The notes under the pieces are model-generated. The model saw only the letters and a list, made by a program, of their open reading frames with translations. It did no database searches and was not told the origin of the DNA. Below, in pieces: positions 28,316 through 47,885 of a DNA stretch of 64,000 nt. This DNA comes from Amycolatopsis mongoliensis (GTDB lineage: Bacteria > Actinomycetota > Actinomycetes > Mycobacteriales > Pseudonocardiaceae), in the NCBI RefSeq assembly GCF_030285665.1, contig NZ_CP127295.1, positions 7,068,001-7,132,000 on the forward strand, given 5' to 3'. A program made the translations under genes and the position numbers. Position 1 is the first letter of the stretch. Each line of letters opens with the position of its first letter.

Positions 28316-29551
28316 TCAGTGCTCACCCGGCGGCTGCGTGCCCAGCAGCTGGTGCGCCCGCAGGGCTATCTGGATCTCCAGCCGGTGCGCCGGATCCGCC
28401 AGCCGGTCGCCGAAGAGGTCGCTCAGCTGGCTCACGCGGTAGCGCACGGTCTGCGGGTGGACGCCCAGTGCCTGCGCGATGTCCGGGGTGTTCCCGTTGT
28501 GTTCGAGCCAGCTCAGCAACGTTTCGGCGAGGCGGACCTGCTGCTTCACCGTCAGGCCCGCGAACGGGGCCAGGGTCTTCGCCGACAGCGCGTCGAGCAG
28601 GAACCGGTCCAGCAGCAGCCAGTGCGTCGCCAGGTGGTCGGCCGTGTGCGTCACCACGTGGTCGCCGACCAGGCCGCGGCGGACCAGGTCGAGCGTGCGG
28701 CGGGCCCACAGCGACGACGTCGCCGCGTCGGCCGGCCGGACCCGGGGGCCGACGGCGGCGCGCCAGCCCGGCAGCCGGCCCTCCAGCCCCCGCAGGTCGC
28801 GGTCCGGGTTCGGGGTCAGCAGGCAGGGCTCGGTGCCTTCGAGGTCGAGCAGGACGTCGTCGGCGACCTGCGGAGCCGGTGTCAGGTGCTGCTCGCTGCG
28901 CGGTTCGAGCGCGACGACCGTCACCCACTCCGGCATGGTCCACTTCGCGGCCTTCGCCATCGTCGCGATCGTCGCCGGGGACGACGGCGGACTGGCCAGG
29001 AGGAGTTCGAGCAGCCGGCGGCGACGGCGTTCGAGCGTCCCGGTCGCCATCGCCTGCGCCAGCGTGTACCCCTCGACCGAGTACGCCGAAATCTCTTCCA
29101 CGTAGGCGAAGATCGCCTCCGCGCCGACGCACAGCACGGCCGCGGGGAAGCGGTGGGCCTGGCCCAGCTCCGCCACGTACCGCCACGCGGCGCGCCCGCC
29201 CGCGCGGTAGGCGGCCTGCAGCGAGTTCAGGCTGCCGCCGTCGTGGTGAACGCGCTTTCCGACCTCCCGGAACAACTTCGGCCAGTTGTCCTCTGTGGAC
29301 GCCACGTCGTCGATGCTGTCGATGCAGCTGACCACGGCCCGCTCGATCGCCAGCACGATCATCTTCCCGAACTCGCCTTCGAGGGGCTTGGCGTACTCGG
29401 GCACGGCCCGCTGGATCTCTTCGAGGATCCGCCGGGCCAGGGGGTCGGCGTGCGGCCGGAACCGCCGCGCGAGCTCGGCCGGCAGTGAGCACCACAGCTG
29501 CTGTGCCCGGCCGGTGCCGCGGGGGTGCGGGACGGTGATCGTCCGGGTCAT
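28316..29551 (-). CDS. PucR-type transcriptional regulator (FasR/MabR-like)
   Basis: The 411-residue protein ends with the PucR-family HTH (TLLSWLEHNGNTPDIAQALGVHPQ... then TVRYRVSQLSDLFGDRL, about residues 340-395). An N-terminal helical domain and a central GGDEF-like/PucR region precede it. Length and layout resemble the actinobacterial FasR and MabR regulators of fatty-acid and mycolate synthesis; that assignment is by resemblance only. It is divergent from the mmpL-type gene that opens the lipid locus, 234 bases away. A paralogue lies at 46719-47885, on the other side of the locus. ATG at 29551 has GGGGTGG before it. Confidence 0.82.
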   Translation of the reverse strand: MTRTITVPHPRGTGRAQQLWCSLPAELARRFRPHADPLARRILEEIQRAVPEYAKPLEGEFGKMIVLAIERAVVSCIDSIDDVASTEDNWPKLFREVGKRVHHDGGSLNSLQAAYRAGGRAAWRYVAELGQAHRFPAAVLCVGAEAIFAYVEEISAYSVEGYTLAQAMATGTLERRRRRLLELLLASPPSSPATIATMAKAAKWTMPEWVTVVALEPRSEQHLTPAPQVADDVLLDLEGTEPCLLTPNPDRDLRGLEGRLPGWRAAVGPRVRPADAATSSLWARRTLDLVRRGLVGDHVVTHTADHLATHWLLLDRFLLDALSAKTLAPFAGLTVKQQVRLAETLLSWLEHNGNTPDIAQALGVHPQTVRYRVSQLSDLFGDRLADPAHRLEIQIALRAHQLLGTQPPGEH

Positions 29552-29785
29552 GGCCACCCCTTTTCCGCGTCGTCGCGAAGGTCATGTACGCACACGGAAA
29601 CGAGATTGGCAACTGCCGGATCTACGCCCGGACCGGGTTCTGTCATGCGGGGACCAACGACCGCGCGCGGTTTTGTCACCCGTCCGACAAACGGCGGAAC
29701 ACTCACGGCCGCAAGGGTTTCCGGAATGCGATTTGTGAGCCCGGCCCGTATCTTCGCGGGCCTTTCCGTAGTTAGCGTGATCACC

Positions 29786-31780
29786 ATGACGGCCGTCGTT
29801 TCGTGGTGCTTCCGCCACTCCGGTGTGGTGGTCGCGTGGTGGCTGACGGCGCTGGCGGGGCTCGTCGCCGCCGTGCTGCACACCGGCGCGGACTTCCGCG
29901 ACACGGTCGACCTGCCCACCGCGGACAGCACCGCCGCGGCCCGTTTGCTGCGCGGCACCGGCACCGAAGAACGCGTCGTCGTCCGCGCGCCGGACGGCCC
30001 GATCGACTCGGGCACCGGCCGCGCCCGGCTCGACGCCTTCGCCGCGCGGCTGGCGGCGCTCCCGCACGTCGTGGCCGTCGGGCCGCCGCCCGGCGAGGTG
30101 TCGGCCGACCACCGGACCGCGGTGCTGCCCGTCCGGTTCGACGCGCCGGCCGCGGACCTCGGCCAAGGCACGGCGGACGCCTTCGCGGACATCGTGCGGG
30201 ACCCGGGCGGCCTGACCGCCGGAGCGTCGGGGGAGCTCTCGGCGATGACGGCGGCCGCGCCGGACCTGGGCAACGCCGGGATCGGCCTGCTCGCCGCGGC
30301 CCTCGTGCTGCTGGTCACGTTCCGCTCGGCGGCGTGCGTCCTGCTCCCGGTCCTCACCGCGTCGGTGTCGGTCGGCTGTGCTCTCGCCGTCGTCACGCTG
30401 GTGTCGCACGTCATGACCGTCCCGAAGATCAGCACCGAGATCGCCGCATTGCTGGGCCTCGGGGTCGGCGTCGACTACGCGTTGTTCGTGCTCACCCGCT
30501 TCCGGCAGGGACGCCGGGAAGGTGCGGACCCCGCGGCGGCGCTGGCCGTCGCGGCGGCGACGTCGGGCCGCAGCGTGGTCTTCGCCGGGATCACCGTGTG
30601 CGTCTCGCTGGCGGGCATGCTGACCGTCGGCCTGCCGTTCCTCGACGGGATCGCCGTCGCGGCCGCGGTTTCCGTGCTGCTCACCGCGGCCGCCGCGCTG
30701 ACCCTGCTGCCCGCGTTGCTGCGGCCGGTGGCCGCGCGGATGCGGATCCCGGCGGAGGGGAGCGGCCGCCGGTGGGCCCGCCTGGCGCGTGCGGTGACCG
30801 GGCGGCCGGGCCCGTGCACGCTGGCCGCGTTGCTGGTCGTGGCCGTGCTCGCGCTGCCGATGACCGGGCTGCGGCTCGGGGTGCCGGACGCCGCCCTGGA
30901 CCCGCCCGGCAGTGTCACGCGGACGGCCGCCGAACTGCTGCGCGACGCGTTCGGCCCGGGCGCCGGCGCGCCGCTACTGGTGACCGGCACAGGCGACCCG
31001 TCGCTGGGCACGCTCCGCGAGGCGCTGCTCGCCCGCGCCGATGTCGGGCCCCCGGCGACTCTGCCGGACGGCGGCTGGCTGCTCACGGTCACCCCGCGCA
31101 CCGCACCCGACGACCCGGCCACCGGCGAGCTGCTGACCTGGACGCGGGCGATGGCCACGACCGTCGGCGGTCCGGACACCCACGTCGGCGGGCTCGTCGC
31201 GGCCCGGGCGGACTTCTCCGCGGCCATCACCGCGCGGCTGCCGCTGTTCCTCTTCAGCGTCGTCGGCATCTCGGTGCTGCTGCTCGCCTGGGTGTTCCGC
31301 AGCGTGCTGATCCCGCTGACGGCCGCGGTGATGAACCTGCTGACCGCGGCCGCGACGACGGGCGCGGTCGTGTTCGCCTTCGGCGGCCCGATCGAGCCCT
31401 ACCTGCCGGTGTTCCTGTTCGCCGGGCTGTTCGGCCTGTCGATGGACTACGAGGTCTTCCTCATCGCGCGCATCCAGGAGGCGTGGCGCCGCCGCGGCGA
31501 CACCCGGGCCGCGGTCGTCGACGGCGTCGCGGCGACCGGCCGGACCATCACCGCGGCCGCGCTGATCATGGCGCTGGTGTTCGTGGCGTTCGCCTTCGTG
31601 GACGCCCGCGTCGTGCGGGAGGCCGGGGTGGGGCTGACCGTCGCGGTGCTCCTCGACGCGGTCGTCGTGCGGTGCGTGCTGGTCCCGGCGGTGATGGCGT
31701 GGTTCGGCGAAGCCAACTGGTGGTTCCCGCGGCCCTCTCGCGCCCGGATCACCCGCGAGCCGGTGGGAAGTGCGCGATGA
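29786..31780 (+). CDS. MmpL/RND-family lipid transporter
   Basis: The 664-residue protein has the MmpL two-half layout. Each half has a first membrane helix, an extracytoplasmic domain and a block of five to six helices. GLGVGVDYALFVLTRFRQGR in the first half and GLSMDYEVFLIARIQEAWRRRG in the second are the family signature helices with the proton-relay D-Y pairs. It is shorter than MmpL3 and lacks a long C-terminal tail. ATG at 29786 lies eight bases after a TAGCGT -10 element, so the message may be leaderless; an in-frame ATG at 29726 is an alternative. It probably exports the lipid made by the genes downstream. Confidence 0.87.
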   Translation: MTAVVSWCFRHSGVVVAWWLTALAGLVAAVLHTGADFRDTVDLPTADSTAAARLLRGTGTEERVVVRAPDGPIDSGTGRARLDAFAARLAALPHVVAVGPPPGEVSADHRTAVLPVRFDAPAADLGQGTADAFADIVRDPGGLTAGASGELSAMTAAAPDLGNAGIGLLAAALVLLVTFRSAACVLLPVLTASVSVGCALAVVTLVSHVMTVPKISTEIAALLGLGVGVDYALFVLTRFRQGRREGADPAAALAVAAATSGRSVVFAGITVCVSLAGMLTVGLPFLDGIAVAAAVSVLLTAAAALTLLPALLRPVAARMRIPAEGSGRRWARLARAVTGRPGPCTLAALLVVAVLALPMTGLRLGVPDAALDPPGSVTRTAAELLRDAFGPGAGAPLLVTGTGDPSLGTLREALLARADVGPPATLPDGGWLLTVTPRTAPDDPATGELLTWTRAMATTVGGPDTHVGGLVAARADFSAAITARLPLFLFSVVGISVLLLAWVFRSVLIPLTAAVMNLLTAAATTGAVVFAFGGPIEPYLPVFLFAGLFGLSMDYEVFLIARIQEAWRRRGDTRAAVVDGVAATGRTITAAALIMALVFVAFAFVDARVVREAGVGLTVAVLLDAVVVRCVLVPAVMAWFGEANWWFPRPSRARITREPVGSAR

Positions 31781-33165
31781 CCCGGCGGACCCTGGTGCTG
31801 ATCGCGCTCGGCGCGTTCGTCACGACCCTGGACAACACCATCGTCGCGGCCGGTGCACCCTCGATCGCCCGCGACCTCGGGCTGGACCTCGGGACGCTGC
31901 AGTGGGTCGCCCTCGGCTACATGCTCCCCTTCGCCGGGCTGCTCCTGGTGGCGGGCACCCTGATCGACCGCTGGGGCCGGCGCCCGGCACTGCTGGCCGG
32001 GCTGCTCGCGTTCGGGGTCGGCGCGGCCGCCGGCGGGCTGGCCGGTTCGGCGGGCCTGCTCGTCGCCGCCCGGGTGCTGCAGGGTGCGGCGGCGGCGTTC
32101 CTGGTGCCCGGCCTGCTGAGCCTGCTGCGGTCGAACCTCGACGCGCGGGGCCGGACGCTCGGTGCCGCCGTGTGGACGGCGTGCCTGGCCGCCGCGCTGG
32201 CGCTGGGCCCGGCGCTCGGCGGGCTGCTGAGCGAATACCTCGGCTGGGCCTGGATCTTCTTCGTCAACCTCCCGTTCGTGGCGGCGATGCTCGTCCTGCT
32301 GCCGGGGACGGTGCCACCCGGGCGCGACCCGTCGGCGCCGCGCCCGGCCGCCGGGGCGATGGCCGTCGTGACGGCGAGCCTGGTCCTGCTCACCGCGGCG
32401 CTCGTCGAACTGGGCGAGGCTCCCCGGACCGGGGTCGTCCTGCTGGCGGCGGGCGCCGCGCTCGGCGTGGGGTTCGTGCTGCGGGAGCGCCGGACGCGGG
32501 AGCGGCTGGTGCCGGCCGACCTGACCGGCAACCGGGTGTTCGCGGGCTCGCTCGCCGTGCAGGTGCTGTGGGGGCTCGGGATCTCGGGCATCGTCTTCTT
32601 CACACCTCTGCTGCACCAGGAGTTCCTCGGTCTCGACCCGGTGCGGGCCGGGTTGCCGCTGGCGCTCGTCGCGGTCGCGGTGGTGGCCGCGACGCCGCTG
32701 GTCCCGGGGGCGGTGGCCCGGTTCGGTCCGCCTCGGACGGTCGCCGCCGGGCTCGCCGTGGTCGCCTGCGGCCTGCTCGTCCTCGCCGTCGTGAACCACC
32801 TCCCGGCGGTTCCCCCGCGGGTGCCGGGACTGGTGCTGATCGGGGCCGGCTCGGCGTTCACGACGCCGTTGACGTCGCACGCGCTGGACGTCGTGGCCGC
32901 ACGGCGGTCCGGGACGGCGTCCGGGCTGCTCACGGCGTCCCGCGAGCTGTCGAGTGCGCTGGGCGTCGCGCTGATCGGCGCCGTCCTGACGGCGGTCCGG
33001 GGGGTGCGGCTCGGTGCGGGCGCGCCGCCGGGAGGGGCGCTGGCCGCGGGCTACACCGCCGGCCTCCTCGCGGCGGCCGGGCTGACGTTCGCCGGCGCGC
33101 TGCTGGCCGTGCGCGTGGTGCGGAGCCCGACCTCGTCGCCGCGTGACAAACGCGCGGTGCCGTAA
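31777..33165 (+). CDS. MFS drug:H+ antiporter-family transporter (DHA2-like)
   Basis: The 462-residue membrane protein has 12-14 hydrophobic segments and the family signatures FVTTLDNTIVAAGAPSIARDL in helix 1, GTLIDRWGRRPAL in loop 2-3 and the antiporter motif region ALGPALGGLLSEYLGWAWIF. Its ATG overlaps the mmpL stop (ATGA), so the two transporters are translationally coupled. Export of a lipid precursor or product of the downstream synthase is inferred from the operon, not from sequence. Confidence 0.88.
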   Translation: MTRRTLVLIALGAFVTTLDNTIVAAGAPSIARDLGLDLGTLQWVALGYMLPFAGLLLVAGTLIDRWGRRPALLAGLLAFGVGAAAGGLAGSAGLLVAARVLQGAAAAFLVPGLLSLLRSNLDARGRTLGAAVWTACLAAALALGPALGGLLSEYLGWAWIFFVNLPFVAAMLVLLPGTVPPGRDPSAPRPAAGAMAVVTASLVLLTAALVELGEAPRTGVVLLAAGAALGVGFVLRERRTRERLVPADLTGNRVFAGSLAVQVLWGLGISGIVFFTPLLHQEFLGLDPVRAGLPLALVAVAVVAATPLVPGAVARFGPPRTVAAGLAVVACGLLVLAVVNHLPAVPPRVPGLVLIGAGSAFTTPLTSHALDVVAARRSGTASGLLTASRELSSALGVALIGAVLTAVRGVRLGAGAPPGGALAAGYTAGLLAAAGLTFAGALLAVRVVRSPTSSPRDKRAVP

Positions 33166-33257
33166 TCCGTGTGCCGGTGAGCATCGGAATTCGCTTGATT
33201 GACAACCGCCGGGAAGCAGCTATTCACTGCGCCGGCAAACGCTATCTGCGAGGAGCC

Positions 33258-34994
33258 ATGGAAACCATTTCCCAGCCGGTTCCCGTCACCGGGGAAACCA
33301 CCGCCGACCCTGCGTCGCTGGCGACTCTGCTCGGCCGGTGGGCGCGCGTCCTCGGCGACGAGGTCGCCTTGACCTGTCTGGACCACCGCGACAGCGCGGA
33401 CGGCCGGGCGGTGACGCTCACCTGGCGCGAGCTCGACGAGCGGGTCGGCACGGTCGCCGCGCGGTTGAGCGGGATCGCGCTCCCGGGGGAGCGGGCGGCG
33501 GTGCTCGCCGGGCAGTCCGCGGACTACGTCGTCGCGTTCCTCGGCGCGATCCGGGCGGGCCTGGTCGCCGTGCCGCTGTTCGCGCCCGGCCTGCCCGGGC
33601 ACGCGGCCCGGCTGGCCGCGGCGCTCGCCGACTGCGCCCCACGGGCCGTGCTCACCACGACCGGCGACATCGACGCGGTGCACGCCTTCCTCGCCGATTC
33701 GGCGGCGCGGCCGGCCGTGGTCGCCGTCGACGCTCTCGCGCCGGCCGGACCGCGGGAATGGCCGCCACCGGATCCCGATGCCACGGCGTACCTGCAGTAC
33801 ACCTCCGGCTCCACCCGCTCGCCCGCCGGCGTCGTGCTGACCCACCGCAATGTCCTGGCCAACGCCCGCCAGGCGTGCACCGCCTACGGCGCCGAAAGCC
33901 GCACCACCTCGACCGTCAGCTGGCTCCCGCTGTTCCACGACATGGGCCTGATCCTCGGCGTCGGTGCGCCGATGGTCGGCGGCATGGCGTCGGTGCTGAT
34001 GGACCCGCTGGCGTTCCTGGAACGGCCGTCGCGATGGCTGCGCGCGCTGTCGGCCAGCCCCGGCGCGATCAGTGCCGCGCCCAACTTCGCCTACGCCTAC
34101 TGCGCTTCCCGCGTGTCCGAGGCCGAGAAGAGCTACCTGGAGCTGAGCCGGGTGGTCTCGCTGATCAACGGCAGCGAACCGGTGCTGCCGGCCACGATCG
34201 CGAAGTTCCAGGACGCCTTCGCCGAGTGCGGGCTGCGGCCGGAGGTCCACCGGTCGTCCTACGGGCTGGCCGAGGCCACCGTGTTCGTCTCCGTGTCGGA
34301 CGCCGGGAAACCGCCCCGGCAGGTCACGTTCGACCGCGACCGGCTCGCCGCCGGGTCCGCGGTGCCGGCCGGCTCCGGTTCGACCCTCGTTTCGTGCGGT
34401 CGCCCGGCCGGGCAGCGGGTGCGGATCGCCGATCCCGTCACCGGCGAACCCCTCGCGCCCGGTGCGGTCGGCGAGATCCGGGTCAGCGGCCCGAACGTCG
34501 GCCGCGGTTACTGGGGGCGGCCCGAGGCGTCGTCGGCCACGTTCGGCCTGCCGCCGCTCGACCCGGGCACCGGCGAGGGCTGGCTGGCGACCGGGGACCT
34601 CGGCGTGGTCTTCGACGGCGAACTGTTCGTCACCGGCCGGCTGAAGGACCTGGTCGTCGTCGACGGCCGCAACCACTACCCGCAGGACGTCGAGCAGACG
34701 GTGGAGGAGCACGCGGGCGTCCGGCCGCACTCGGCCGCGGTCTTCGCCATCGGCACCGACGACGGGGAAGCCGCGGTCGTCGCGCTGGAACGCGCCAAGA
34801 ACTCCGCCGCGGACGTCGCCGAAGTGACCGCCGCGCTGCGGGCGGCGGTGTCGGCCGGGCACGGCCTGCGCCTGCACGACGTCGTGGTCCTGGCGCCCGG
34901 GGAGGTGCCGCGGACGTCCAGCGGCAAGATCAGCCGGGCCCGCTGCCGGGAGTCCTATTCGGACGGCTCGCTGGCCGGGCGGCGGCTCGGATGA
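33258..34994 (+). CDS. Long-chain fatty acyl-AMP ligase (FadD32-like)
   Basis: The 578-residue ANL enzyme is of the fatty acyl-AMP ligase type. The P-loop YLQYTSGSTRSPAGVVLTH and motifs WLPLFHDMGLI, SSYGLAEATVFV, TGDLGVVFDGELFVTGRLKD and the C-terminal SSGKISR are present. FAALs activate fatty acids as acyl-adenylates and hand them to an acyl carrier domain instead of CoA. The following gene starts with such a carrier domain and overlaps this one (ATGA), as with mycobacterial FadD32 and Pks13. The ATG at 33258 has CGAGGAG; the upstream in-frame extension lacks one. Confidence 0.9.
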   Translation: METISQPVPVTGETTADPASLATLLGRWARVLGDEVALTCLDHRDSADGRAVTLTWRELDERVGTVAARLSGIALPGERAAVLAGQSADYVVAFLGAIRAGLVAVPLFAPGLPGHAARLAAALADCAPRAVLTTTGDIDAVHAFLADSAARPAVVAVDALAPAGPREWPPPDPDATAYLQYTSGSTRSPAGVVLTHRNVLANARQACTAYGAESRTTSTVSWLPLFHDMGLILGVGAPMVGGMASVLMDPLAFLERPSRWLRALSASPGAISAAPNFAYAYCASRVSEAEKSYLELSRVVSLINGSEPVLPATIAKFQDAFAECGLRPEVHRSSYGLAEATVFVSVSDAGKPPRQVTFDRDRLAAGSAVPAGSGSTLVSCGRPAGQRVRIADPVTGEPLAPGAVGEIRVSGPNVGRGYWGRPEASSATFGLPPLDPGTGEGWLATGDLGVVFDGELFVTGRLKDLVVVDGRNHYPQDVEQTVEEHAGVRPHSAAVFAIGTDDGEAAVVALERAKNSAADVAEVTAALRAAVSAGHGLRLHDVVVLAPGEVPRTSSGKISRARCRESYSDGSLAGRRLG

Positions 34995-37900
34995 CCACGA
35001 CCGACGCGGTCCGCGCGTGGCTGCTCGCTCGGCTCGGTCCGGTGGACCCCGACCGGCCGCTGCAGGAGACCGGACTGTCCTCACGGGACGCGACGGCCCT
35101 CGCGGCCGACCTCGGGCAGTTCGTCGGCCGTCCCCTGGACGTGACCCTCGTCTGGCGGTACCCGACGATCACCGCCTTGGCCGAACACCTGTCCACCGGG
35201 CAGTCCCGGGCGGTTCCGCTGCCGGAGCGCCCGGCCGGGGAGCCGATTGCGGTCGTCGGCCTGGGCTGCCGGCTGCCCGGCGGGATCGACTCCCCGGAGG
35301 CGTTCTGGCGCTTCCTCGACTCCGGGGGCGACGGTATCGGCGACGTCCCCGAAGGGCGCTGGGAGACGTTCGCGCCGGCGTCGGACCTCGCCGGTTTGCC
35401 TTCGCGGGGCGGGTTCCTCGACGACGTCGCCGGGTTCGACGCGGAGTTCTTCGGCATCACTCCCCGCGAGGCCGAAGCGATGGACCCGCAGCAGCGGATC
35501 CTCCTGGAGGTCGCCTGGGCGGCGCTGGAGCACGCCGGCATCCCGCTGTCCGGCCTGCGCGGCAGCCGGACCGGCGTGTTCGTCGGGCTGTCGGCCACCG
35601 AATACGGCTCCTTGACGATGACCGACGTCGCGGGCGTCGACGTCTGGTCGGGCACGGGTGCCGCGGCGAGCATCGCCGCCAACCGGCTGTCGTACCTGCT
35701 CGACCTGCGCGGGCCGAGCCTGACGCTCGACACGGCGTGTTCGTCGTCGCTGGTCGCGGTGCACCAGGCGATGCAGAGCCTGCGCCGCGGGGAGAGCGAG
35801 ATCGCGCTGGCCGCCGGGGTGAACGTGCTGTTGTCCCCCGGCATCACCGCGGGCTTCCACCGCGCCGGGGTACTGGCCGCGGACGGGCACTGCAAGCCGT
35901 TCGACGCGGGCGCCGACGGCATCGCGCGCGGCGAGGGCTGCGGGGTCGTCGTGCTGAAGCCGTTGCGGGCGGCCCGCCGGGCGGGGGACCGGGTGCTGGC
36001 GGTGCTGCGCGGCAGCGCGGTGAACTCCGACGGCCGGTCCAACGGCATGACGGCGCCCAACCCTTCGGCGCAGGCGGACCTGCTGCGTGAGGCTTGTGCG
36101 GAAGCCGGGATCGATCCGTCCTCAGTGGACTACGTCGAAGCGCACGGGACCGGTACCCCGCTCGGAGACCCGCTGGAGGCCGGTGCGCTGCGGACGGTGC
36201 TCGGACGCGAGGCCGAGCGTCCGCTGCTGCTGGGATCGGTGAAGAGCAACCTGGGCCACCTCGAAGGGGCGGCCGGCATCGCGGGGCTGCTGAAGGTCGT
36301 GCTGGCGATGACGCACCGCCGCGTGCCGCCGAGCCTGCACTTCCGGGAGCCGAACCCGCACATCGACTTCACCGGGCTGCGGGTGGTGACGGAAAGCACG
36401 GACTGGCCGCGCTATTCGGGCACGGCGCGGGCCGGGGTGTCGGCGTTCGGCTTCGGCGGGACGAACGCGCACGTGGTGGTCGAGGAGTGGCCGGCGGCGA
36501 CGTTCCCGGTGCGGGTGACCGAGGCTCCAGGGCCGGAGGTGTTCGCGCTTTCGGCCCGGTCGGCGGAGGTGCTGCGGGCGCGGGCGGGCGGGCTGGCGGA
36601 CTGGGTCGAGCGGTCGGACGTGCTGCTGGGGGCGGTGGCGTCGACGCTGGCTCACGGGCGCGAGCACCTGCCGGTCCGCGGCGCGATCGTGGGGGAGAGC
36701 CGCGACGAAGTGGTGGCGGGGCTGCGGGCGCTGGCCGCGGGAAGTGCCGTGGCCGGCGCGGAGGCCGGGAGCAGGTCCCCCGGCCTGCCGCAGCTTGTCG
36801 TGAGTGAGAAACAGTGTTCTGACCCGGTTTCTCACTCACGACCGTCCGCGGCGCCCCCGGGCGTGGTCTTCGTCTTCTCCGGCTACGGTTCCCAGTGGGC
36901 CGGTATGGGCCGCCGGTTCCTGCGCTCCGAACCCGCCTTCTGTGCCGAGGTCGAAGCGCTCGATCGCGCCTTCCTCGCCGAAGCCGGCTGCTCGCTCCGG
37001 GACCTGCTCGAGCGCGAACCCGACGACCTCGCCACCACCCAGCTCGCCCTCTTCGGCATGCAGCTCGCCCTGGCCGGGCTCTGGCGCGCCCACGGCGTCA
37101 CCCCCGCGGCCGTCCTGGGGCATTCCATGGGCGAGGTCGCCGCGGCCGTCGTCGCCGGGGCGCTCGAGGTCGCCGACGGCCTGCGCGTCATGACCACCCG
37201 GGCCCGGCTGCTCGCCGAACTCGACCGGAGCGGGGACGGCGCCATGGCCGTCGTCGAACTCTCACCCGCCGAACTGGCGAAGTTCCCCGAGGTCACCGTC
37301 GCCGTCTACGCCTCGCCCACCCAGTGCACGGTCAGCGGCGCCGCGGACCAGGTCGACGCCCTCGTCGAGCACGCCGAAAGCCTGGGCAGGCTCGCCCGGC
37401 GGCTCCCGGTCGGCGGGGCCGGGCACTCAGCCGCCGTCGACGCCGTGCTCGACCGGTTCCGCCGCGAGATCGGCCCGATTCGGCCCAGGAAGCCGGAAAT
37501 CCCCTGCTACACCACCGTTCTCGACGATCCTGAAGAGACACCCGCCTTCGACGTCGAGTACTGGGCGGCGAACCTGCGCCGTCCGGTGCGGTTCAGCCAA
37601 GCCCTCGCCGCCGCCGCGAAAGACGGGCCCACCGCGTTCGTCGAAGTGTCCCCGCACCCGGTGGCCCTCGCCGCCATCGAACAGACCACCGGCGAACAGG
37701 GCCTGCCGTCGGCGAGCCGGTGGAGCGACGAACGGACGGCCTTCCTCACCAGCCTCGCCCGGCTGCACGTCGGCGGCCGTCCCGGCACACTGGCCGCCCG
37801 TCCCCGGACGGCGCTGGTCGACCTGCCGGGCCCCGTCTGGCGGCACGAACGGTTCTGGCCGAAGCGGCGCACCCAGGCCCATGGGCTCCACCCGCTGCTG

Positions 37901-40900
37901 GGCGTCCACATCGAGCACCCGGACGGCCACCTGTGGCGGGCCGGCGTCGGCGTGGCGGCCCTGCCGTGGCTGTCCGACCACACCGTGCAGGGGACGCCGG
38001 TGTTCCCCGCCACCGGCTTCCTCGAACTGGCGCTCGCCGCCGGGCGCACCGGGCGGATCCGCGACCTCGAGCTGCGGGAAGTCCTCCCGCTCGACGAGCA
38101 CACCGAGGTCACGACCAGTCTTGCCGGCACCGAGTTCGGCGTCCACGCGAAGTCCGCACAGGGCGAATGGGTCCGCCACGCCACGGCCCGGATCGAGACC
38201 GGCGGCGCGCCGTCGGCACCGTTCGGCGAGGTCACCGGCGAGCCCCTCGATCTGTACCGCGTCCTGTCCGAGCTGGGCCAGGACTACGGCCCGGCCTTCC
38301 GGGGCCTGCGGCGGGTGGTCGCCACCGAGGGCCGTGCCTCGGCGTCGATCGCGCTGCCCGCCGCCGATCACCCCGCCTACCTGCTGCACCCCGCCCTCGC
38401 CGACGCCTGCCTGCACGCGCTCGCCGCGGCCGTCGGGGACGCGGACGCCCTCTACTTGCCGCTCACGATCGGCGAGGTGGTGCTCGCCGGCGAACCGCGG
38501 CACGGCGTACGCGTGGACGCCGTCCTCACCTCGAAAGACCCCTCCGGCGACGGCCTGCTCGGCAGTGTCCAGCTCGTCGGCGCCGACGACGTCGTCCTGG
38601 TCGAGTTCCGCGACGTCTACTGCCGCCGCTTCCGCGACGCGGCCCTGGACCGGCTGCTGTTCGAGGCGGCCTGGCAGCCCGCCGATCTGCCCGCCGGGCC
38701 GGAGCGGACCGGCGACTGGATCGTACTGTCCGAAGTGGACGACGACCTCGTCACCGCCCGCCTCGGCGACCGTGCCGCACTGGCGAACCAGCTGCGCGAC
38801 AGCGCCGCGACCGCCGTCGTGGTCCTGCTCGGCGGGGAAGCCACGCCGGACCCCGCGCGGGCCGCGCGGCTGACCGGGACCCTGTCCGCCGTCGTCGCCG
38901 AGCTGGCCGAACTGGCGACGCCGCCGAGGGTGTGGCTGGTCACGGCCGGGGCGCAGAGCGTCGAACCCGGCGAGCGCGGTGACCCCGATCTGGCCGCGCT
39001 GCGCGGGCTCGTCCGCGTGCTCGCCTTCGAACACCCCGAGCTCCGGGTGAGCGCGGTCGACTTCGACGCCGGCCCGGACCCGGCGCGGCTGTGGGCCGGC
39101 CAGCTACGCGACGAGGTCCGCGCGGACGGCCCGGACGACGAGGTCGCCTGGCGCGAGGGCGTCCGGCACGTGCGACGGCTGGTCCGCCCCGAGCCGGCCG
39201 ACGCGGTGCGCGAGCCGGTCCGCGACGGCGCCTACGTCGTCACCGGCGGGCTCGGCGGCCTCGGCCTGGTCGCGGCGAAGTGGCTGGCCGATCGCGGCGC
39301 GACACGGGTGGTGCTGAACGGCCGGCGCGCGGCCCCCGCCCCGGGCCTGGGGATCGACGTCCGGGTGGTGGCCGGCGACATCGCCGCGCCCGGCACGGCG
39401 GAAGCGCTGGTCGCGGCCGCCGTCGACGACGGCGTGCCGCTGCGCGGGGTGCTGCACGCCGCCGGGGTGCTGGCCGACGGCGCCGCGATCAGCCTGGACA
39501 CGGACGCGCTCGACGCCGTCTGGCGACCGAAGGCGCTGGGTGCCTGGCGGCTGCACGAGGCGACTGCCGGGCACGAACTCGACTGGTGGCTCGTCTATTC
39601 CTCGGCGGCCGCGCTGTTCGGCTCGCCCGGCCAGGCCGCGTACGCCACGGCGAACGCGTGGGCCGACGCCCTGGTCGCGTGGCGCCGGGCCCAGGGCCTC
39701 CCGGCGGCGACGATCGGGTGGGGCGCCTGGGGCGAGGTCGGCGCCGCGGCCGGGTCGCGCAACCCGGTGCTCGAACCGCTCGGCACCGGGGAAGCGCTGT
39801 CGGCGCTGGACACCGTCCTCGCGCGCGACCGCGCGGCGACCGGCGTGGCCCGCGTCAACGCCGCGACGGTGCTGGAGCTGTTCCCGCGGCTGGCCGACCG
39901 GCCGTTCTTCGGGTTGTTCGCGCCGCGCACCGGACCGTCTACTTGGGACGGACTGGACGCCCTGCGGACCGGCCCGCCGGAAGCCGCGCGCGCAGCGATC
40001 GCCGACCACCTCGCCGGGCTCGTCGCGGGCTTGCTGGGTTACACCGACGTCGAACGGGACGTGCCGCTCACCCGGCTCGGCCTCGACTCGCTGTCGGCGA
40101 TGCGCGCGCGGGGCGCGGTGGAACGCGACTTCGGGCTGCCGCTGCCGATCCCGCTGCTCCTGCGCGGTGCCAGCCTGGCGGAGCTCGCCGGCCACCTCGC
40201 CGAGCAGGCCGGCTTCGGACCGGCGAAGGCCGAGCCGGTCACCGCCGGGCCGCGCGACCCCGCCGAGCGGTGGGTCGCCCGCCACTGGCGGGCCGAGCTG
40301 GGCGGCCCGGAACCCGGTGTGCACGACGACTTCTTCGCCGTGGGCGGCGATCCCGAGCGCGCGCGGCGGCTGCGGGCGGTGTTCGCGGAGCAGCTGGGCG
40401 CCGTGCCCGCCGTGGAGCGGCTGTTCGCCACGCCGACGGTCGCGGCGATGGCGGACCTGCTGCGCGCGGAGCTCGAAGGCCACGGCGGCGGCCCGGTGCG
40501 GTTGTTGCGCGACGGCGTCGGTGAGCCGGTGTTCCTGTTCCACCCGGCCGGCGGCCCGACGAGCGTGTACCGCGAGCTCGCCCGGCTGCTCCCGGAGGGG
40601 AACCCGGTGTACGGGTTCGAGCGGATCGACGACGAAGACACGGTCGAGGCCAAGGCCGCGTGCTACGTCGAGCTGATCCGGGAGATCCAGCCGCAGGGCC
40701 CGTACCGGCTGGGCGGCTGGTCGTTCGGCGGCTGCCTGGCGTACGAGACGGCGCGGCGGCTGGACGGGCCGGTCGAGCTCGTGTTCCTGATCGACACGAT
40801 CCTGCCGCTGCCCGCGCCCGGGAAGCCGGCCGACCTGGTGCTGGACCGCTTCGAACGGTTCGCCGAGCACGTCTCGCGGACCTACGGCGTGCCGTTCGAG

Positions 40901-41287
40901 GTCCCGCGCGAGGCCCTGGCCGAGCTCGACGAGGACGCCCAGATCCGCTGGGTCCTGGACCGGCTGACCGAGCAGGTCCCCGACCTGGGTGCGGGCGTCC
41001 TGCGCCACCAGTACGAGTCCTATGTGGACGCCCGGGTGGCCGAGCGGTACGCGCCGGAGCGGTACGGCGGGCGGGTGCTGCTGCTGCGGGCGCAGGACCC
41101 GCACCCGCTGACGACGGCGCTCGACCCGCGCTACCTGCGCACGGACGACAGCTTGGGCTGGGACGAGTACTGCTCCGACCTCGAAGTGGCCCGCGTCCCG
41201 GGTGACCACGTGTCGATGATCGACCCGCCGCACGTGGCCGTGCTGGCGGCGGAACTGGCGGCGCGGCTCGGAGTGGGGGTGCGGTGA
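34991..41287 (+). CDS. Type I polyketide synthase: ACP-KS-AT-DH-KR-ACP-(ACP-like)-TE
   Basis: The 2098-residue synthase starts with a carrier domain whose GLSSRDA motif (S31) strongly resembles the N-terminal carrier of Pks13. KS: C250 in DTACSSS, then EAHGTGT and KSNLGH. AT: S712 in GHSMGE, with GAGH at 809-812 in the extender-specificity position instead of YASH or HAFH. DH: H997 in [10 protein letters not shown], with D1138 opposite. KR: GGLGGLG near residue 1417 and the S/Y region near 1537-1550. ACP: S1700 in LGLDSL. A second carrier-like domain reads GGDP with P1788 where serine is expected. TE: S1911 in GWSFGG and H2073. No ER is present. A palindromic repeat lies in the KS-AT linker (residues 603-618). 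The gene overlaps both neighbours. It probably condenses a loaded long acyl chain with a carboxyacyl extender. Confidence 0.93.
36797..36842. repeat. Palindromic repeat element inside the polyketide synthase gene
   Basis: GTCGTGAGTGAGAAAC (36797-36812) and GTTTCTCACTCACGAC (36827-36842) form a perfect 16-bp inverted repeat with a 14-base loop. The same arms occur at 56144-56192 between other genes. Here the element is in frame, encoding the KS-AT linker residues 603-618. Confidence 0.9.
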
Positions 41288-42863
41288 TGGACGAGCTCAC
41301 GCCGACGACGGCGTTCCGGATCGCCGACCTCGCGGCCAGACAGGACGAAGCCGTCCGGATCGCCGAGAAGCGGGCCGTCGACCGGCAGCATGCCAAAGGC
41401 AAGCTCACTGCGCGGGAACGGATCGGGCTGCTGCTCGACCCCGGTTCCTTCGTCGAGCTCGACCAGTTCGCGCGGCACCGGTGCGGCGAGTTCGGGATGG
41501 ACGCCAACCGGCCCTACGGGGACGGCGTCGTCACCGGGCACGGAACCGTCGACGGTCGGCAGGTCTGCGTCTTCTCCCAGGACTTCACCGTCTTCGGCGG
41601 CAGCATGGGCGAGGTCTCCGGCGAGAAGGTCCTCAAGGTGATGGACCTGGCGCTGTCGCTGGGCTGCCCGGTCGTCGGGATCAACGACTCCGGCGGCGCG
41701 CGCATCCAGGAAGGCGTCGTCTCGCTGGCCTACTACGCCGAACTCGGCCGGCGCAACGCCCACGCGTCCGGGGTCGTCCCGCAGATCTCGATGATCATGG
41801 GCCCGTGCGCCGGCGGCGCCGTCTACGCGCCGGCCATCACCGACTTCACCGTGATGGTCGACGAGACCTCGCACATGTTCGTCACCGGACCGGACGTCGT
41901 GCACGCCGTCACCGGTGAGCGGGTCACGGCGCAGGAACTGGGCGGCGCGGCCGTGCAGAGCGAGGTCGCCGGCAACGCCCACCACCGGGCCGCCGACGAG
42001 CAGGACGCCATCGAGTGGGTGCAGACGCTGCTGGCCTACCTCCCCGCCAACAACCTCGACCCCGCCCCGGAGTACGCCGACGACACCAGCCCCGTCGTCA
42101 CTCCCGCCGACCTGGAGCTCGACCGGCTGGTGCCCGACTCGCCGAACCAGACCTACGACATGGCCGAGCTGATCGTCCGGGTGGTGGACGACGGCGAGTA
42201 CACCCAGGTGCACAGCGCCTTCGCGGCCAACATGATCTGCGCGTTCGGCCGGGTCCAGGGCCGCACGGTCGGCATCGTGGCGAACCAGCCGCGGCACCAG
42301 GCCGGCGTCCTCGACATCGACGCGTCGGAGAAGGCCGCGCGGTTCGTGCGCTTCTGCGACGCCTTCTCGATCCCGCTGCTCACCCTCGCCGACGTCCCCG
42401 GCTACCTGCCGGGCAGCGACCAGGAACGCGGCGGCATCATCCGCCGCGGCGCCAAGCTGATCTACGCCTACTCCGAAGCCACCGTGCCGAAGGTGACCGT
42501 GGTGGTCCGCAAGGCCTACGGCGGCGGCTACGCGGTGATGGGCTCCAAGCACCTCGGCGCCGACGTGTCCCTGGCCTGGCCCACCGCGGAGATCGCCGTG
42601 ATGGGCGCGGAAGGGGCGGTGCAGGTGCTCTACCGGCGTGAGCTGGCCGAGCTTCCCCGGAGCGGCGGGCCGCGGCGCGAAGACGGCTCACCGAGGAGTA
42701 CCGCAAGCGCCACACCGGGCCGTACCTGGCCGCCGAGCGCGGCTACGTCGACCAGGTCATCACGCCTTCGCAGACCCGGCTGCAGGTCGCGCGCGCCCTG
42801 CGGACCCTGCGCACCAAACGCCAGACCCTGCCGGCCAAGAAGCACGGAAACATCCCCCTGTGA
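41287..42863 (+). pseudogene. Acyl-CoA carboxylase beta subunit (AccD4/PccB-like), one-base frameshift
   Basis: The product is a biotin-dependent carboxyltransferase. [44 protein letters not shown] and [15 protein letters not shown] form the two crotonase-fold halves. The frame from 41287 is intact to about 42651. The family C-terminus ([20 protein letters not shown]) then continues in another frame to the TGA at 42861-42863. Adding one G at 42651 (GAGCTTCC to GAGGCTTCC) restores a 525-residue protein. The lesion is either real or a sequencing error. The start overlaps the synthase stop (TGATG). By analogy with AccD4 it would make the carboxyacyl extender for the synthase. Confidence 0.85.
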
Positions 42864-42874
42864 AGGAGACTTCG

Positions 42875-43843
42875 ATGAGAGCCACCCTGCTGCTGCTGGC
42901 CGTCGTCGTCCTCGTCGCCAGCGGCGTCACGGCCGCCCAGGCGAGCCCGGCCGTGGCCGACGACGGCGCGAAGGTCGTCGAGGAGACCTGGCTCGACGCC
43001 CGGACCGTCGACCTGAAGATCAGCTCGCCCGCCCTCGGCACCACCGGGATGGTCCGGCTGATCGTGCCGTCCGGGTGGGCCGCGCAGCCCACCCGCACGT
43101 GGCCGGTGCTGTTCCTGCTGCACGGCTGCTGCGAGCCCGTCGACTACAAGTCGTGGGACCAGTTCACCGACGTGAAGGCGTTCACTGCCACCAAGGACGC
43201 GCTCGTCGTGATGCCGACGGACGGTCCGGCCGGGATGTACACGAAGTGGTGGAACTTCGGCCTGTCGAGCACCCCGGACTGGGACACGTTCCACACGGCC
43301 GAAGTGCGCCAGATCGTCGAACGCGGGTACCGCGGCGGCACGCGCCGGGCGGTCGCCGGGCTGTCGATCGGCGGGTACGGCGCGCTCGCGTACGCCTTCC
43401 AGCACAAGGGGATGTTCGCCGCGGCGGCGTCCTACAGCGGGGTGCCGAACACGCTCTACCCGGGCATCCCGGTGTGGATCATCGGCATCCTGGCCCGCGC
43501 CGGGATCTTCAACTACCTGAACCTCTGGGGCGACTCCTTCGGGATGCAGCCGATCTGGTCCGCGCACAACCCCTACGACCACGTCCAGGACCTGCGCGGC
43601 ACGGCGCTCTACATCTCCTGCGGCAACGGGCAGACCGGGCCGCTCGACCCGCCGGGGCAGAGCGACGTGCTGGAACCGTCGGCGCTGCTGTCGTCGCAGA
43701 GCTTCACCGACAAGCTGCGGCAGGCGGGCATCCCGGCGACCGTCGACTACTACGGGCCGGGCACGCACAGCTGGCCGTACTGGCAGCGGGCCCTGCACAA
43801 CTCGTGGCCGGTCCTGGCCGGCGCGCTCGGCCTCCCCGCCTGA
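42875..43843 (+). CDS. Secreted esterase-D/antigen-85-like acyltransferase
   Basis: The 322-residue protein has a signal peptide (residues 1-24) and an esterase-family alpha/beta-hydrolase domain of the group containing mycolyltransferases. The elements are [17 protein letters not shown], nucleophile elbow [13 protein letters not shown] and C-terminal [12 protein letters not shown] with the catalytic histidine. Eleven bases after the carboxylase stop and preceded by AAGGAG, it belongs to the same operon. In mycobacteria the corresponding fbp genes transfer mycolates to trehalose and arabinogalactan. An analogous extracytoplasmic acyl transfer is inferred. Confidence 0.85.
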
Positions 43844-43873
43844 GCGTTTCCCCTTTCCCCGATGGAGGTTGTG

Positions 43874-45088
43874 GTGAAGTCTGTCCCTTTGCGACGCGTG
43901 CTGTCCGCGCTCCTGGGCGTTTCCCTGGCGGCGCTCGGAGTCGTGGCCGCGAGCCCACCCGCCGGCGCGGTGGCGGCGCCGGTCCTGCCCGGCCCGTTCG
44001 ACGACTCGTTCTACACCCCGCCGTCGCCGCTGCCGGCCGGGAAGCCCGGTGACGTCCTGCGCTGGCGCCCGTCGGTGCCGCTGCTGAACGTCGCCAACGC
44101 CGACGCCTGGCAGGTCATGTACCTCTCGACCAACGCCCAGGGCCGGCCGGACGCGGTCACCGGGACCGTCCTGGTGCCGAAGGGCACGGACCCGGCGCAG
44201 GCGCCGATCGTCGGCTACGCCGTCGGCACGCAGGGGCCGGCGTTCAAGTGCACGGCGTCCAAGGCGATGGAGCGGGGCACGCTCTACGACCAGCCCGCCA
44301 TCAACGACTCGCTCTCCAGCGGGTACGCCGTCGCCGTGACCGACTACGAGGGCTACTCGCCGACGACCGTGCCGACCTACATCACCGGGCAGTCCATGGG
44401 CCCCGCCGTGATCGACTCGGTGCGGGCGGCGCAGAACCTGCCGGCCGCGCGGCTGGCCAAGTCGGCGAAAGTGATCTTCCAGGGGTACTCGCAGGGCGGC
44501 GGCGGATCGATGTGGGCGGGGGAGAAGCAGCCTGCTTATGCGCCGGAACTCGACGTGGTGGGCGTCGTCGCGGGCGGCGTGCCGGCCGATCTGGCCGAGG
44601 TCGCCAAGGGACTCGACGGGTACATCGGGTTCGGGTTCCTCGCGTTCGCCGCCGTCGGGCTCGATGCCGCGTACCCGGACCTGAAGCTCGATTCGTTCCT
44701 CAACGACACCGGCCGTCAGCAATTGGGCGATGCCAAGAAGAACGCTTGTGTCGCGGAACTGCTGCTGAACTACTCGTTCAAGAAGATCAGCGACTACACG
44801 ACGACCAACCCGCTGAACACGCCGCAGTGGCAGGCCCGGCTGGCGCAGAACAAGCTGGGCGCGAACCCGCCGCGGGTGCCGGTGTTCCAGTACCACGCGA
44901 GCACCGACGAGATCGTCAACACGCCGCAGGCCGAGACCTTGCACCGGGCCTACTGCGCGGCCGGGGTGCGGGAGCAGTGGCAGACCTACGTTTCCGACCA
45001 CGCAACGGGGATTCTGGCCGGGAATGCCGACGCCCACCAGTGGATCGTGAAACGGTTCAGCGGGGCGCAGGCACCGTCGAACTGCTGA
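43874..45088 (+). CDS. Secreted lipase (LIP family)
   Basis: The 404-residue protein has a signal peptide ending near residue 30 and a secretory-lipase domain. Segments include [23 protein letters not shown] and the nucleophile elbow [14 protein letters not shown] near residue 205. An aspartate in YHASTDEIV and a histidine in VSDHATGIL complete the triad. GTG at 43874 is preferred because GGAGG stands five bases before it; ATG at 43862 overlaps that site. It follows the acyltransferase by 30 bases. A truncated paralogue lies at 4601-5053. Confidence 0.87.
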
Positions 45089-45097
45089 GGAAATGTA

Positions 45098-45144
45098 GTG
45101 AATGACTCATTCCTGTCGCCACACGACAGGAATGAGTCATTCAC
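45098..45144. terminator. Perfect 21-bp hairpin between convergent lipase and cutinase genes
   Basis: GTGAATGACTCATTCCTGTCG (45098-45118) pairs perfectly over 21 bp with 45124-45144, leaving a 5-base loop. It separates the convergent lipase (stop 45088) and cutinase (stop 45151) and can serve as a bidirectional terminator. Confidence 0.8.
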
Positions 45145-45150
45145 GTCGGG

Positions 45151-45810
45151 TCAGACCTTGCTCGCGGCGAAGGCTGCGGCGTCGGTGGCGTTTCCGCCGT
45201 AGCTCAGGTGGGCCAGGACGTTCGCGCCACCCGCCTGGCAGATCGGGTCGCCGTCGGCGCAGTAGTCCTTGGTGCGGCTCTGGTACGGGCCGGTCACCTG
45301 CCGGCCGACCGCCCGGATCGGGTTGCCGAACAGCAGCACCGCCGCGATCCGCGGGGCCAGCTCCGCCGGGATGGTCGCCACGATCGGGCCGCCGACGACC
45401 GCGCCGTCGCTGCTGACACCGAGCGAGTTGTCGACGACGTTGGCGCCCTGGGAGTAGCCGACCAGGACGAACCGCTGCTGCGGGCAGGCCGCGGCCTGGG
45501 CCTTGACGTGGTTCACCAGGTCGGTGTTGCCCTTCTGCACCGACGCCGGCTCGCCGAGGTCGGCCGGGTAGTTCACGGGGTAGCTGCTCAGCGAGCGGGG
45601 CCGCAGGGAGTTCTGCACGGCCTGGTAGACGGGATCGCCGACGATGAGGCCCAGCGTGCCGGGCTCGAACGTGCCGCGGGCGACCGGCACGTCGATGTCG
45701 GTGCAGGGCGCGGCCGACGCCGCCGGTGCGGTGGCGACGGCGAGCCCGGCCGCGGCGAGGCCGACCGTGACGGCGGCGGAAAGCAGACGGGACCTGGAAA
45801 CGCGAGTCAT
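45151..45810 (-). CDS. Secreted cutinase-family esterase (Culp-like)
   Basis: The 219-residue protein has a signal peptide (core residues 8-30, then ASAAPC) and the cutinase fold. FVLVGYSQGANVVDN contains the nucleophile serine, KDYCADGDPICQAGG the aspartate with flanking cysteines, and NVLAHLSYG the histidine. Cutinase-like proteins of mycolate-containing bacteria are lipases/phospholipases, and culp6 (Rv3802c) lies in the mycolate locus. Its presence beside the FAAL-PKS-carboxylase-acyltransferase operon extends that resemblance. Confidence 0.9.
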   Translation of the reverse strand: MTRVSRSRLLSAAVTVGLAAAGLAVATAPAASAAPCTDIDVPVARGTFEPGTLGLIVGDPVYQAVQNSLRPRSLSSYPVNYPADLGEPASVQKGNTDLVNHVKAQAAACPQQRFVLVGYSQGANVVDNSLGVSSDGAVVGGPIVATIPAELAPRIAAVLLFGNPIRAVGRQVTGPYQSRTKDYCADGDPICQAGGANVLAHLSYGGNATDAAAFAASKV

Positions 45811-46718: not shown

Positions 46719-47885
46719 GTGTCCGGCGACGGTGCTCGGCAGCAAGTCCCGGTGACGGGAGAGGTGTTCGGGCGCGCGGAGCTGGCCGCGCTCATGCGGC
46801 CGGCGGTGCCGGCGCTGGTGGACTGGATCGTCCGGGAGGTGTGGCGCGAGGTCCCGGTGTACGCCCGGCACGGCAGCGTGACCCGCCACGGCGTCGAGTG
46901 CGCGGTGGTGCTCTTCGTCGATCTGGTCGAGGACCCGCTCGCCCCCCGCGATCGGCTGTACGAGACGTGCCGCCGTCTCGGCGCGGGCGAGGCGTACGAG
47001 GGCCGGACGCTCGACGACCTCCAGGTGGCGTACCGGGTCGGCTCGCGCGCGGGCTGGCGCTGGATCATGCGCCTGGGTCGGCGGCACCGGCTGTCGTCGG
47101 CGGTGATGGCGCGCCTGGCGGAGATGCTGTTCGGCTACGCGGACGAGCTGGCCCGGATGTCGATCCGCGGGCACCGCGAAGCGCAAGCGGAGCTGGACGG
47201 CACGCGGGCGGGCCTGCGCCGCCGCCTGCTGCGGCTGGTGACCGGGCCGGTGGCGGTGACGGACGCGGTCCTCGCCGAGCTCGCGGTGGCGGCCGGCTGG
47301 CCGGTGCCGGGCGAGGTGGCGGCGGTGGCCGTCGAGTCGCCGGTGAATCCGTCGTGGGGTCCCGAGGTGCTCGCCGACCTCGAGCCGCCCCAGCCGTACC
47401 TGCTGGTGCCGGCCCCGGTGGACGGACGGTTCGTCGCTTCTCTCGGCGTCCGGGCCGCGGTGGGCCCGCCGGTCTCCCCGACGGCCGCAGCACATTCCCT
47501 GCGGTGGGCCCGGACGACGTTGCGGCTGGTGGGCGACGGCGCGCTGCCCGACGCCCCGGTGACGTGGTGCGCCGAGCACCTGACGACGCTGTGGCTGCTC
47601 TGCGACTCGCCGCTGGCGGACCAGGTGGCCCGCCAGGAGCTGGCCCCGCTGACCCGGTTCCCGGACCGCACGCGGCGGCGGCTCGGCGAGACTTTGCTGT
47701 CGTGGCTGGAAAACGGCGGCAACTCGGAGAAGATCGCGGTCGACCTGTCCGTGCATCCGCAGACGGTGCGCTACCGCGTGCGTCAGCTCAAACAGGCCTT
47801 CGGGGACCGGCTGGACGATCCGGAGGCGCGGTTCGCGATGCAGGCGGCCCTGCGAGCCTCGGCGCTGCGATCCCGCGGCGCGTGA
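46719..47885 (+). CDS. PucR-type transcriptional regulator (paralogue of 28316-29551)
   Basis: The 388-residue protein has the same architecture as the regulator at 28316-29551, including a nearly matching C-terminal HTH (TLLSWLENGGNSEKIAVDLS, then VHPQTVRYRVRQLKQAFGDRL). Residues 1-180 are helical. GTG at 46719 was chosen for GGGGAGGG upstream; an earlier in-frame reading overlaps the tetR gene. Two related PucR-type regulators at both borders of the lipid locus suggest control of lipid synthesis, by analogy with FasR and MabR. Confidence 0.82.
   Translation: MSGDGARQQVPVTGEVFGRAELAALMRPAVPALVDWIVREVWREVPVYARHGSVTRHGVECAVVLFVDLVEDPLAPRDRLYETCRRLGAGEAYEGRTLDDLQVAYRVGSRAGWRWIMRLGRRHRLSSAVMARLAEMLFGYADELARMSIRGHREAQAELDGTRAGLRRRLLRLVTGPVAVTDAVLAELAVAAGWPVPGEVAAVAVESPVNPSWGPEVLADLEPPQPYLLVPAPVDGRFVASLGVRAAVGPPVSPTAAAHSLRWARTTLRLVGDGALPDAPVTWCAEHLTTLWLLCDSPLADQVARQELAPLTRFPDRTRRRLGETLLSWLENGGNSEKIAVDLSVHPQTVRYRVRQLKQAFGDRLDDPEARFAMQAALRASALRSRGA

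Follow-up and report, generated by a model that had tools for sequence, protein, structure and literature searches.

A Pks13-related lipid synthase locus with ketoreductase and dehydratase domains in Amycolatopsis mongoliensis

A 2018 perspective describes mycolic acids as exclusive to Corynebacteriales and the Ag85 genes as confined to mycolate-positive species, and regards it as a mystery how the mycomembrane arose (PMC6194230). The closest described gene set is the mycobacterial fadD32-pks13-accD4 cluster with Rv3802c and the Ag85 genes (PMC2625445), and AccD4 complexes are reported to carboxylate long-chain acyl-CoA (PMC4347857). Here we describe a comparable locus at positions 29777-45810 of a 64,000-nucleotide stretch, hereafter the window (NZ_CP127295.1, 7068001-7132000), from the one-contig, 10.81-Mb genome of Amycolatopsis mongoliensis. 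Open reading frames and Pfam matches place there, in this order, genes for an MmpL-family transporter, a major facilitator superfamily (MFS) exporter, a fatty acyl-AMP ligase (FAAL), a polyketide synthase (PKS), an acyl-CoA carboxylase beta subunit (AccD), an Ag85-like acyltransferase (Est), a lipase and a convergent cutinase; both the gene set and its positions agree with an initial annotation made from the sequence letters, which had also considered the case of an Amycolatopsis-like host held to lack mycolic acids. The host is an Amycolatopsis, and in one tested species of the genus mycolic acids were reported absent (PMC11004387). Searches of open-licence papers listed none recognisable by title or abstract start as a description of such a locus. 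We consider it rather probable (about 60%) that this Pks13-family locus makes an alpha-alkyl, beta-reduced and probably dehydrated acid, which is exported and transferred outside the cell.

In the pathway we propose, the PKS would act as a single-condensation lipid synthase of the Pks13 family, with ketoreductase (KR) and dehydratase (DH) domains in the same protein. The FAAL would adenylate a fatty acid and load it onto the N-terminal acyl carrier protein (ACP) domain, and the AccD4-like subunit, together with biotin-carrying subunits encoded elsewhere, would carboxylate an acyl-CoA longer than propionyl-CoA. The acyltransferase (AT) domain, with the motif GAGH, would charge the second ACP with the resulting alkylmalonyl unit. 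Condensation of the two by the ketosynthase (KS) would give an alpha-alkyl beta-keto acyl chain; its reduction by the KR and, probably, loss of water through the DH would yield an alpha-alkyl-2-enoyl acid, or ‘anhydro-mycolate’, that the Pks13-like thioesterase (TE) may free or hand to a sugar such as trehalose. Export would proceed through the MFS protein, with MmpL where present, and the secreted Est would move the acyl chain to an envelope acceptor, possibly arabinogalactan. The substrates and chain lengths in this scheme are putative, as are the DH activity, the export and the acceptor.

The synthase (34991..41287, + strand; 2098 residues) contains, by Pfam, ACP, KS, AT, DH, KR and ACP domains, then a third carrier-like stretch that has no active-site serine, and last the TE. 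In a 54-row KS tree with named references, a single clade of 30 rows (support 96/94) holds the KS domains of the window, of its relatives of the same type (type A, including Saccharopolyspora and Actinokineospora), of a second Amycolatopsis type (type B), of four Streptomyces and of seven Pks13 proteins; an earlier 80-row KS tree agrees. The KS, AccD, Est and FAAL trees comprise chosen rows with near-identical relatives dropped, and the Est tree also leaves aside matches having an internal stop. Kinship of the type-A KS with PpsA was rejected by the approximately unbiased (AU) test (p 0.0097), as was kinship with bimodular synthases of 3.7k residues, presumably of the trehalose-polyphleate type (p 3.6e-5). 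A group of type A and Pks13 alone was not rejected (p 0.42), and the exact sister of the window clade is not settled by the tree; a single loss of DH and KR in Pks13, type B and Streptomyces is likewise neither shown nor rejected (p 0.44).

Two further stretches of the synthase point to Pks13. The TE alone, compared with the PDB, gave Pks13 in all of the seven best rows (1.6e-49 to 4e-45), followed by a row at 1.9e-25. The serine-less carrier, which separates the second ACP from the TE, reads GGDP, GGDA and similar; the serine is absent from all 24 type-A rows. Its profile (14 rows) aligned with the matching stretch of Pks13 (14 rows) at an hhalign probability of 96.4 (E 1.3e-9) and with that of type B (4 rows) at 94.2, against 5.8 for the true type-A ACP taken as a control; the three Streptomyces rows from which the stretch could be extracted gave no match (probability 0.1). 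This carrier may represent a vestige shared by the window-type synthases and Pks13. Elsewhere in the host, among 150 of 193 candidates scored, no close relative of the synthase was found except a paralogue near 4.40 Mb (L039:8852-13639, about 4.40-4.41 Mb; loci and genomes carry our labels L and G). It is 56% identical over part of its length and has Mce/MlaD-type genes (two checked) upstream of it. The KS motif, DTAGSAA against DTACSSS in the window, is without the active-site cysteine, and Pfam finds no TE.

A DH- and KR-containing Pks13-like synthase, as the initial annotation had it, is borne out by the Pfam domains and their catalytic residues: the KR lysine, tyrosine and asparagine and the DH histidine and aspartate are kept in 24/24 type-A rows. 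Its proposal of beta-keto reduction, and perhaps dehydration, in cis fits these residues, with the activity of the DH a prediction.

The AccD gene (41284..42863, + strand; Pfam Carboxyl_trans, 2.6e-174), which is frameshifted in this genome as discussed below, encodes a subunit that groups with AccD4 in the trees. The AccDs adjacent to PKS genes and AccD4 fall together (95/96, with the Actinacidiphila AccD of L204 outside; 98/89 with fewer references), apart from AccD5/PccB. The pocket motif is GGGYA in the window, GGGYA or GGAYA in AccD4, GGAYD in the PccB-like subunit of the host and GGAYC or GGAYD in AccD5-like proteins; from work on PccB/AccB, the position of this motif reportedly sets the acyl size. 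Raw identity points instead to the PccB-like subunit, and tree and motif alone favour the kinship of AccD with AccD4. In the AT the window reads GAGH, as do the type-A synthases accompanied by AccD. The Pks13 rows show GASH or GAGH (AASH in Tomitella), the modular synthases of the host HAFH, and most other synthases of family f8 HAFH, YASH or VASH. Module 18 of primycin synthase, with GHSQG and GAGH, has been read as using butyl- to hexylmalonyl units (PMC7522111), and the GAGH motif suggests an extender larger than methyl. A glycine as the first residue of the AT motif and a nearby accD were concordant in 79/81 loci (62 with both and 17 with neither; exceptions, L196 and L227). These 81 loci, which do not include the window’s own row, derive from a table of 92 in which nine were left out and two identical rows merged. 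Five of the nine are truncated where a contig or locus stops (L121, L189, L194, L198, and L210) and four lie outside the clade (L234, L249, L254, and L257); both L194 and L198 combine GAGH with a stretch lacking accD, and L210 has a partial accD, absence of accD meaning that none lies within the stretch compared.

Est (42875..43843, + strand) is nearest to mycoloyltransferases both in sequence and in fold, in line with the antigen-85/esterase-D-like acyltransferase named in the initial annotation. In the PDB it matches corynebacterial PS1 (1.3e-47) and Ag85 (about 7e-20). Across 15 aligned rows, S164 and H298 never vary, and E267, which has a putative role by analogy, is nearly invariant. With the predicted structure (mean predicted local distance difference test score, 87), the 16 best PDB rows from Foldseek are all mycoloyltransferases, followed by a ferulic acid esterase; the protein has both the Ag85/mycoloyltransferase fold and the conserved Ser, Glu and His. 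The Est tree sets it apart from the mycoloyltransferases of mycolate-making species (100/99), in a clade whose 40 rows come almost entirely from PKS loci. At E<=1e-60, Est is found in 43/120 genomes of the family (host counted) and in 18/46 genera. The host encodes one Emb-type arabinosyltransferase, consistent with the arabinose and galactose reported in Amycolatopsis cells (PMC11004387). The host genome also carries another Est-like gene (G000:9095017-9095949), with 50% identity.

Conservation of the locus was surveyed in 35 same-genus relatives, with the ACP-KS part as query and a threshold of E<=1e-160. A match was found in 26, and the best locus of each was compared. FAAL, PKS, AccD and Est are contiguous in 23 of these 26 loci (23 of the 35 relatives), which exceeds a chance arrangement; of the remaining three, L057 and L060 are without AccD and L061 is of another type. 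Within stretches of 14-20 kb, the 23 core loci contain MFS in 20, the lipase in nine, MmpL in eight and the cutinase in six. Because the four genes are contiguous and the others are patchier, the core of the locus consists of FAAL, PKS, AccD and Est, with MFS as the usual companion. The gene order given in the initial annotation is kept in relatives for the core; MmpL, lipase and cutinase each accompany it in a minority.

Related arrangements occur around this core. In Streptomyces stelliscabiei, adelaidensis and olindensis (L190, L191, and L201), AccD, FAAL, PKS and Est are followed by one further gene and a cutinase; the synthase of L191 has the order ACP-KS-AT-ACP-TE, that of Pks13, without DH and KR. 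The Amycolatopsis type B loci (L065, L066, L072, and L073) have FAAL and PKS, then a gene (MFS in L072), and an Ag85-like Est on the opposite strand; their synthases are without KR and DH, according to Pfam on L065 and a motif scan on the other three, and that of L065 has, by Pfam, the domain order of Pks13. In L072, a short-chain dehydrogenase/reductase (SDR) gene follows the Est gene, a glycosyltransferase gene is also beside Est, and genes matching the SDR in size and place are present in L066 and L073. As a guess, the SDR may work on the same chain; a reductase encoded apart from the synthase recalls CmrA, the separate reductase of mycolate makers (PMC6194230).

Several results count against the proposed reading, some of them taken up with the alternatives to which they lend weight. 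On the NCBIfam model NF040607 (Pks13 equivalog), the window PKS scores 1268.9 bits, 831 bits short of the cut-off of 2100. With its DH and KR it also departs from the ACP-KS-AT-ACP-TE domain order of Pks13; those synthases of this architecture that were scored are likewise under the cut-off (L072, 1268.8 bits; L191, 1159.8 bits). In an 81-genome draw of the taxonomic order, with few candidates scored per genome, a PKS exceeded the cut-off in eight genomes, all of family f8 (8/8), and in 0/9 of the window’s family; the zero from this search in the host is weak, 5/76 candidates having been scored and the window’s own synthase not being among them. Comparison with the PDB places 7zma first and Pks13 next for the ACP-KS part, PpsA and MAS ahead of Pks13 for the AT, and MAS (923.8 bits) ahead of Pks13 (890.9 bits) for the whole PKS. 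The KS groups submitted to the AU test were picked after a first tree. With correction for the tree, the link of the AT glycine with accD comes down to six changes per trait, with three concordant and no discordant pairs (p 0.25), and is underpowered. Finally, a joint grouping of the FAAL with FadD32 costs 180 log-likelihood units (AU p 1.7e-55).

The FAAL (33258..34994, + strand, with an alternative start at 33171; Pfam AMP-binding, 3.4e-63) is in fact outside the FadD32 clade. Its best PDB rows are 5icr and 5d6j (named acyl-CoA synthase), then FadD23 and FadD32, and it scores 503.7 bits on the FadD32 model (cut-off, 975). MmpL as MmpL3 (181.6 bits; curated NCBIfam cut-off, 1400) and the cutinase as Culp6 (22.5 bits; curated cut-off, 570) are likewise not supported. 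As the FAAL is not FadD32, and MmpL and the cutinase are far under these cut-offs, the locus does not represent the mycobacterial operon transplanted elsewhere. Of the mycolate-condensation-like reading in the initial annotation, the kinship of KS, AccD, TE and Est and the AT motif survive, with KS falling beside Pks13 rather than PpsA or polyphleate-type synthases and AccD beside AccD4. Identity with FadD32, MmpL3 or Culp6, and membership by the Pks13 cut-off, are not supported. Some parts of the locus share ancestry with the Pks13 system and others were recruited separately.

The reading frame of accD bears on whether the pathway operates in this strain. It is open from 41284 and broken near 42650-42655, and the C-terminal part (ending KHGNIPL) continues in another frame to a stop at 42861-42863. 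Relative to L187 and L040, there is one extra base near 42650 in the window and two are missing near 42655, a net loss of one base; in 25/25 relatives checked, accD runs uninterrupted for 516-526 codons, counted from the aligned start, the frameshift being unique to this genome among the 26 compared. The locus could therefore be decaying here, with a real frameshift and the pathway off or served by another beta subunit. This possibility, compatible with any of the other readings, seems unlikely but deserves real weight; the reading frames of the remaining genes are unbroken, and the stretch is GC-rich, as is typical of places where assembly errors are frequent. The shift may be either an assembly error or recent damage.

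A rather unlikely alternative is that the cell secretes a small glycolipid or ester as a natural product rather than building an envelope component, with Est as a tailoring acyltransferase or hydrolase and MFS as the exporter. The predominance of MFS among the transporters (20/23 core loci), the glycosyltransferase and SDR beside Est in L072 of type B, and a FAAL other than FadD32 would all suit such a product, as would the relatives in Streptomyces, arabinogalactan having been described, according to the perspective cited above, solely from Corynebacteriales and certain related orders (PMC6194230). The affinity of Est for mycoloyltransferases in sequence and fold argues for the envelope instead. 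So does the retention of the core in 23/35 same-genus relatives, secondary-product loci being usually kept in fewer.

Improbable, in our view, is an idle DH, which would make the product an alpha-alkyl-beta-hydroxy acid, in other words a true mycolic acid of short chain length, overlooked because the genes are silent or the amounts low. The glycine of the DH motif HxxxGxxxxP is kept in the window and replaced in 6/24 type-A rows (five being close relatives), which renders dehydration uncertain, and an intact KR with a mycoloyltransferase-like Est would be in keeping with a hydroxy acid; the DH histidine and aspartate in all type-A rows and the absence of mycolic acids reported for a tested Amycolatopsis (PMC11004387) speak against this reading. 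Least probable is a methylmalonyl-CoA extender, giving a methyl-branched unsaturated acid as in mycobacterial trehalose esters with AccD as a dedicated propionyl-CoA carboxylase, for although the whole protein with DH and KR resembles MAS, its AT resembles PpsA, and AccD is 66% identical to the PccB-like subunit of the host against 51-55% to AccD4, the AT motif is GAGH rather than YASH/VASH, the AccD pocket is GGGYA rather than GGAYD, and the KS grouping with PpsA is rejected.

Returning to the reading of an exported, dehydrated alpha-alkyl acid, the Amycolatopsis locus is the probable source of a related lipid that has so far escaped recognition, and, if that reading is true, it would point to a new lipid class. 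An acid without the beta-hydroxyl might escape the usual thin-layer chromatography of mycolic acids. A bolder and, at present, doubtful extension is that Amycolatopsis and other Pseudonocardiaceae attach the ‘anhydro-mycolate’ to trehalose or arabinogalactan by the Ag85-type enzyme, forming a mycomembrane-like layer missed by such chromatography for want of the beta-hydroxyl. On this view, an older and wider actinobacterial system would have given rise to Pks13-AccD4-Ag85 as one of its derived branches, DH and KR having been lost on the Pks13 line. Parts of the condensation and transfer module have close relatives outside Corynebacteriales, both in Pseudonocardiaceae and in Streptomyces, some with reduction in cis and others lacking it, which makes the question of the origin of the mycomembrane testable.

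Among the remaining genes of the locus, those for MmpL, lipase and cutinase are accessory. MmpL, an RND lipid transporter (29777..31780, + strand; Pfam MMPL, 4.9e-71), has a longer GTG start at 29525 that is likewise open, and is followed by the MFS exporter (31777..33165, + strand; Pfam MFS_1, 7.5e-47); the frame 31770-33146, which overlaps the MFS gene, has no Pfam match. Downstream of Est are the lipase of the LIP family (43862..45088, + strand; Pfam LIP, 7.2e-54) and the convergent cutinase (45151..45810, - strand; Pfam Cutinase, 4.1e-41), whose N-termini, like that of Est, resemble secretion signals when read by eye. The starts and stops, said in the initial annotation to overlap mostly, do so by four bases in three gene pairs (MmpL/MFS, FAAL/PKS, and PKS/AccD), and each of these pairs therefore probably shares one transcript. 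A PucR-type regulator gene (28316..29557, - strand; Pfam HTH_30, 2.1e-19), a divergent neighbour and possible regulator, adjoins the locus, as do similar genes in several relatives; another at 46764-47885 occupies the other flank. In L191 of Streptomyces stelliscabiei, the further gene between Est and the cutinase is also a PucR-type regulator (L191:17311-18489). In A. tucumanensis and Actinokineospora pegani, genes for a CocE/NonD-type hydrolase and an R2-like ligand-binding oxidase are located upstream of FAAL (L185:5922-8465 and L188:6983-9566), and genes of similar size, judged by size and not by family, occupy the same place in L045 and L186. The Actinomadura, Spirillospora and Nonomuraea loci L197, L198 and L203 show matches to FAAL, MmpL and Est close together, with a related KS in L198 and L203. 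Scans of the window for composition and tRNA genes gave nothing relevant to the locus.

Among known systems, PpsA of the phthiocerol loading module (so labelled from gene sizes and order in genome G087) shares with the window a FAAL and a start module of ACP-KS-AT-KR-ACP; no TE was found in PpsA, no AccD or Est match occurs in the 11.9 kb of L121, and the KS grouping is rejected. The bimodular mycobacterial PKS of about 3.7k residues likewise has a FAAL in its neighbourhood in G042, and its KS grouping is rejected as well. Est has in common with corynebacterial PS1 and mycobacterial Ag85 the fold, the conserved Ser, Glu and His, the HxWxYW motif and an apparent secretion signal, and differs in belonging to its own 40-row clade (100/99). 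Compared with fadD32-pks13-accD4 and its Rv3802c and Ag85 genes (PMC2625445), both systems possess a FAAL, an ACP-KS-AT-ACP-TE core, an AccD4-clade carboxylase, an Ag85-type transferase and a cutinase, and are alike in the kinship of KS, AccD and TE, in the AT motif and in the serine-less carrier preceding the TE. The window differs by the DH and KR in its synthase, by a FAAL of another clade, by an MmpL that is not MmpL3 and a cutinase that is not Culp6, and by a host genus recorded without mycolic acids. By these sequence comparisons, the locus falls outside Pks13 membership in architecture and score, and appears to work like the Pks13 system and to have partly descended with it.

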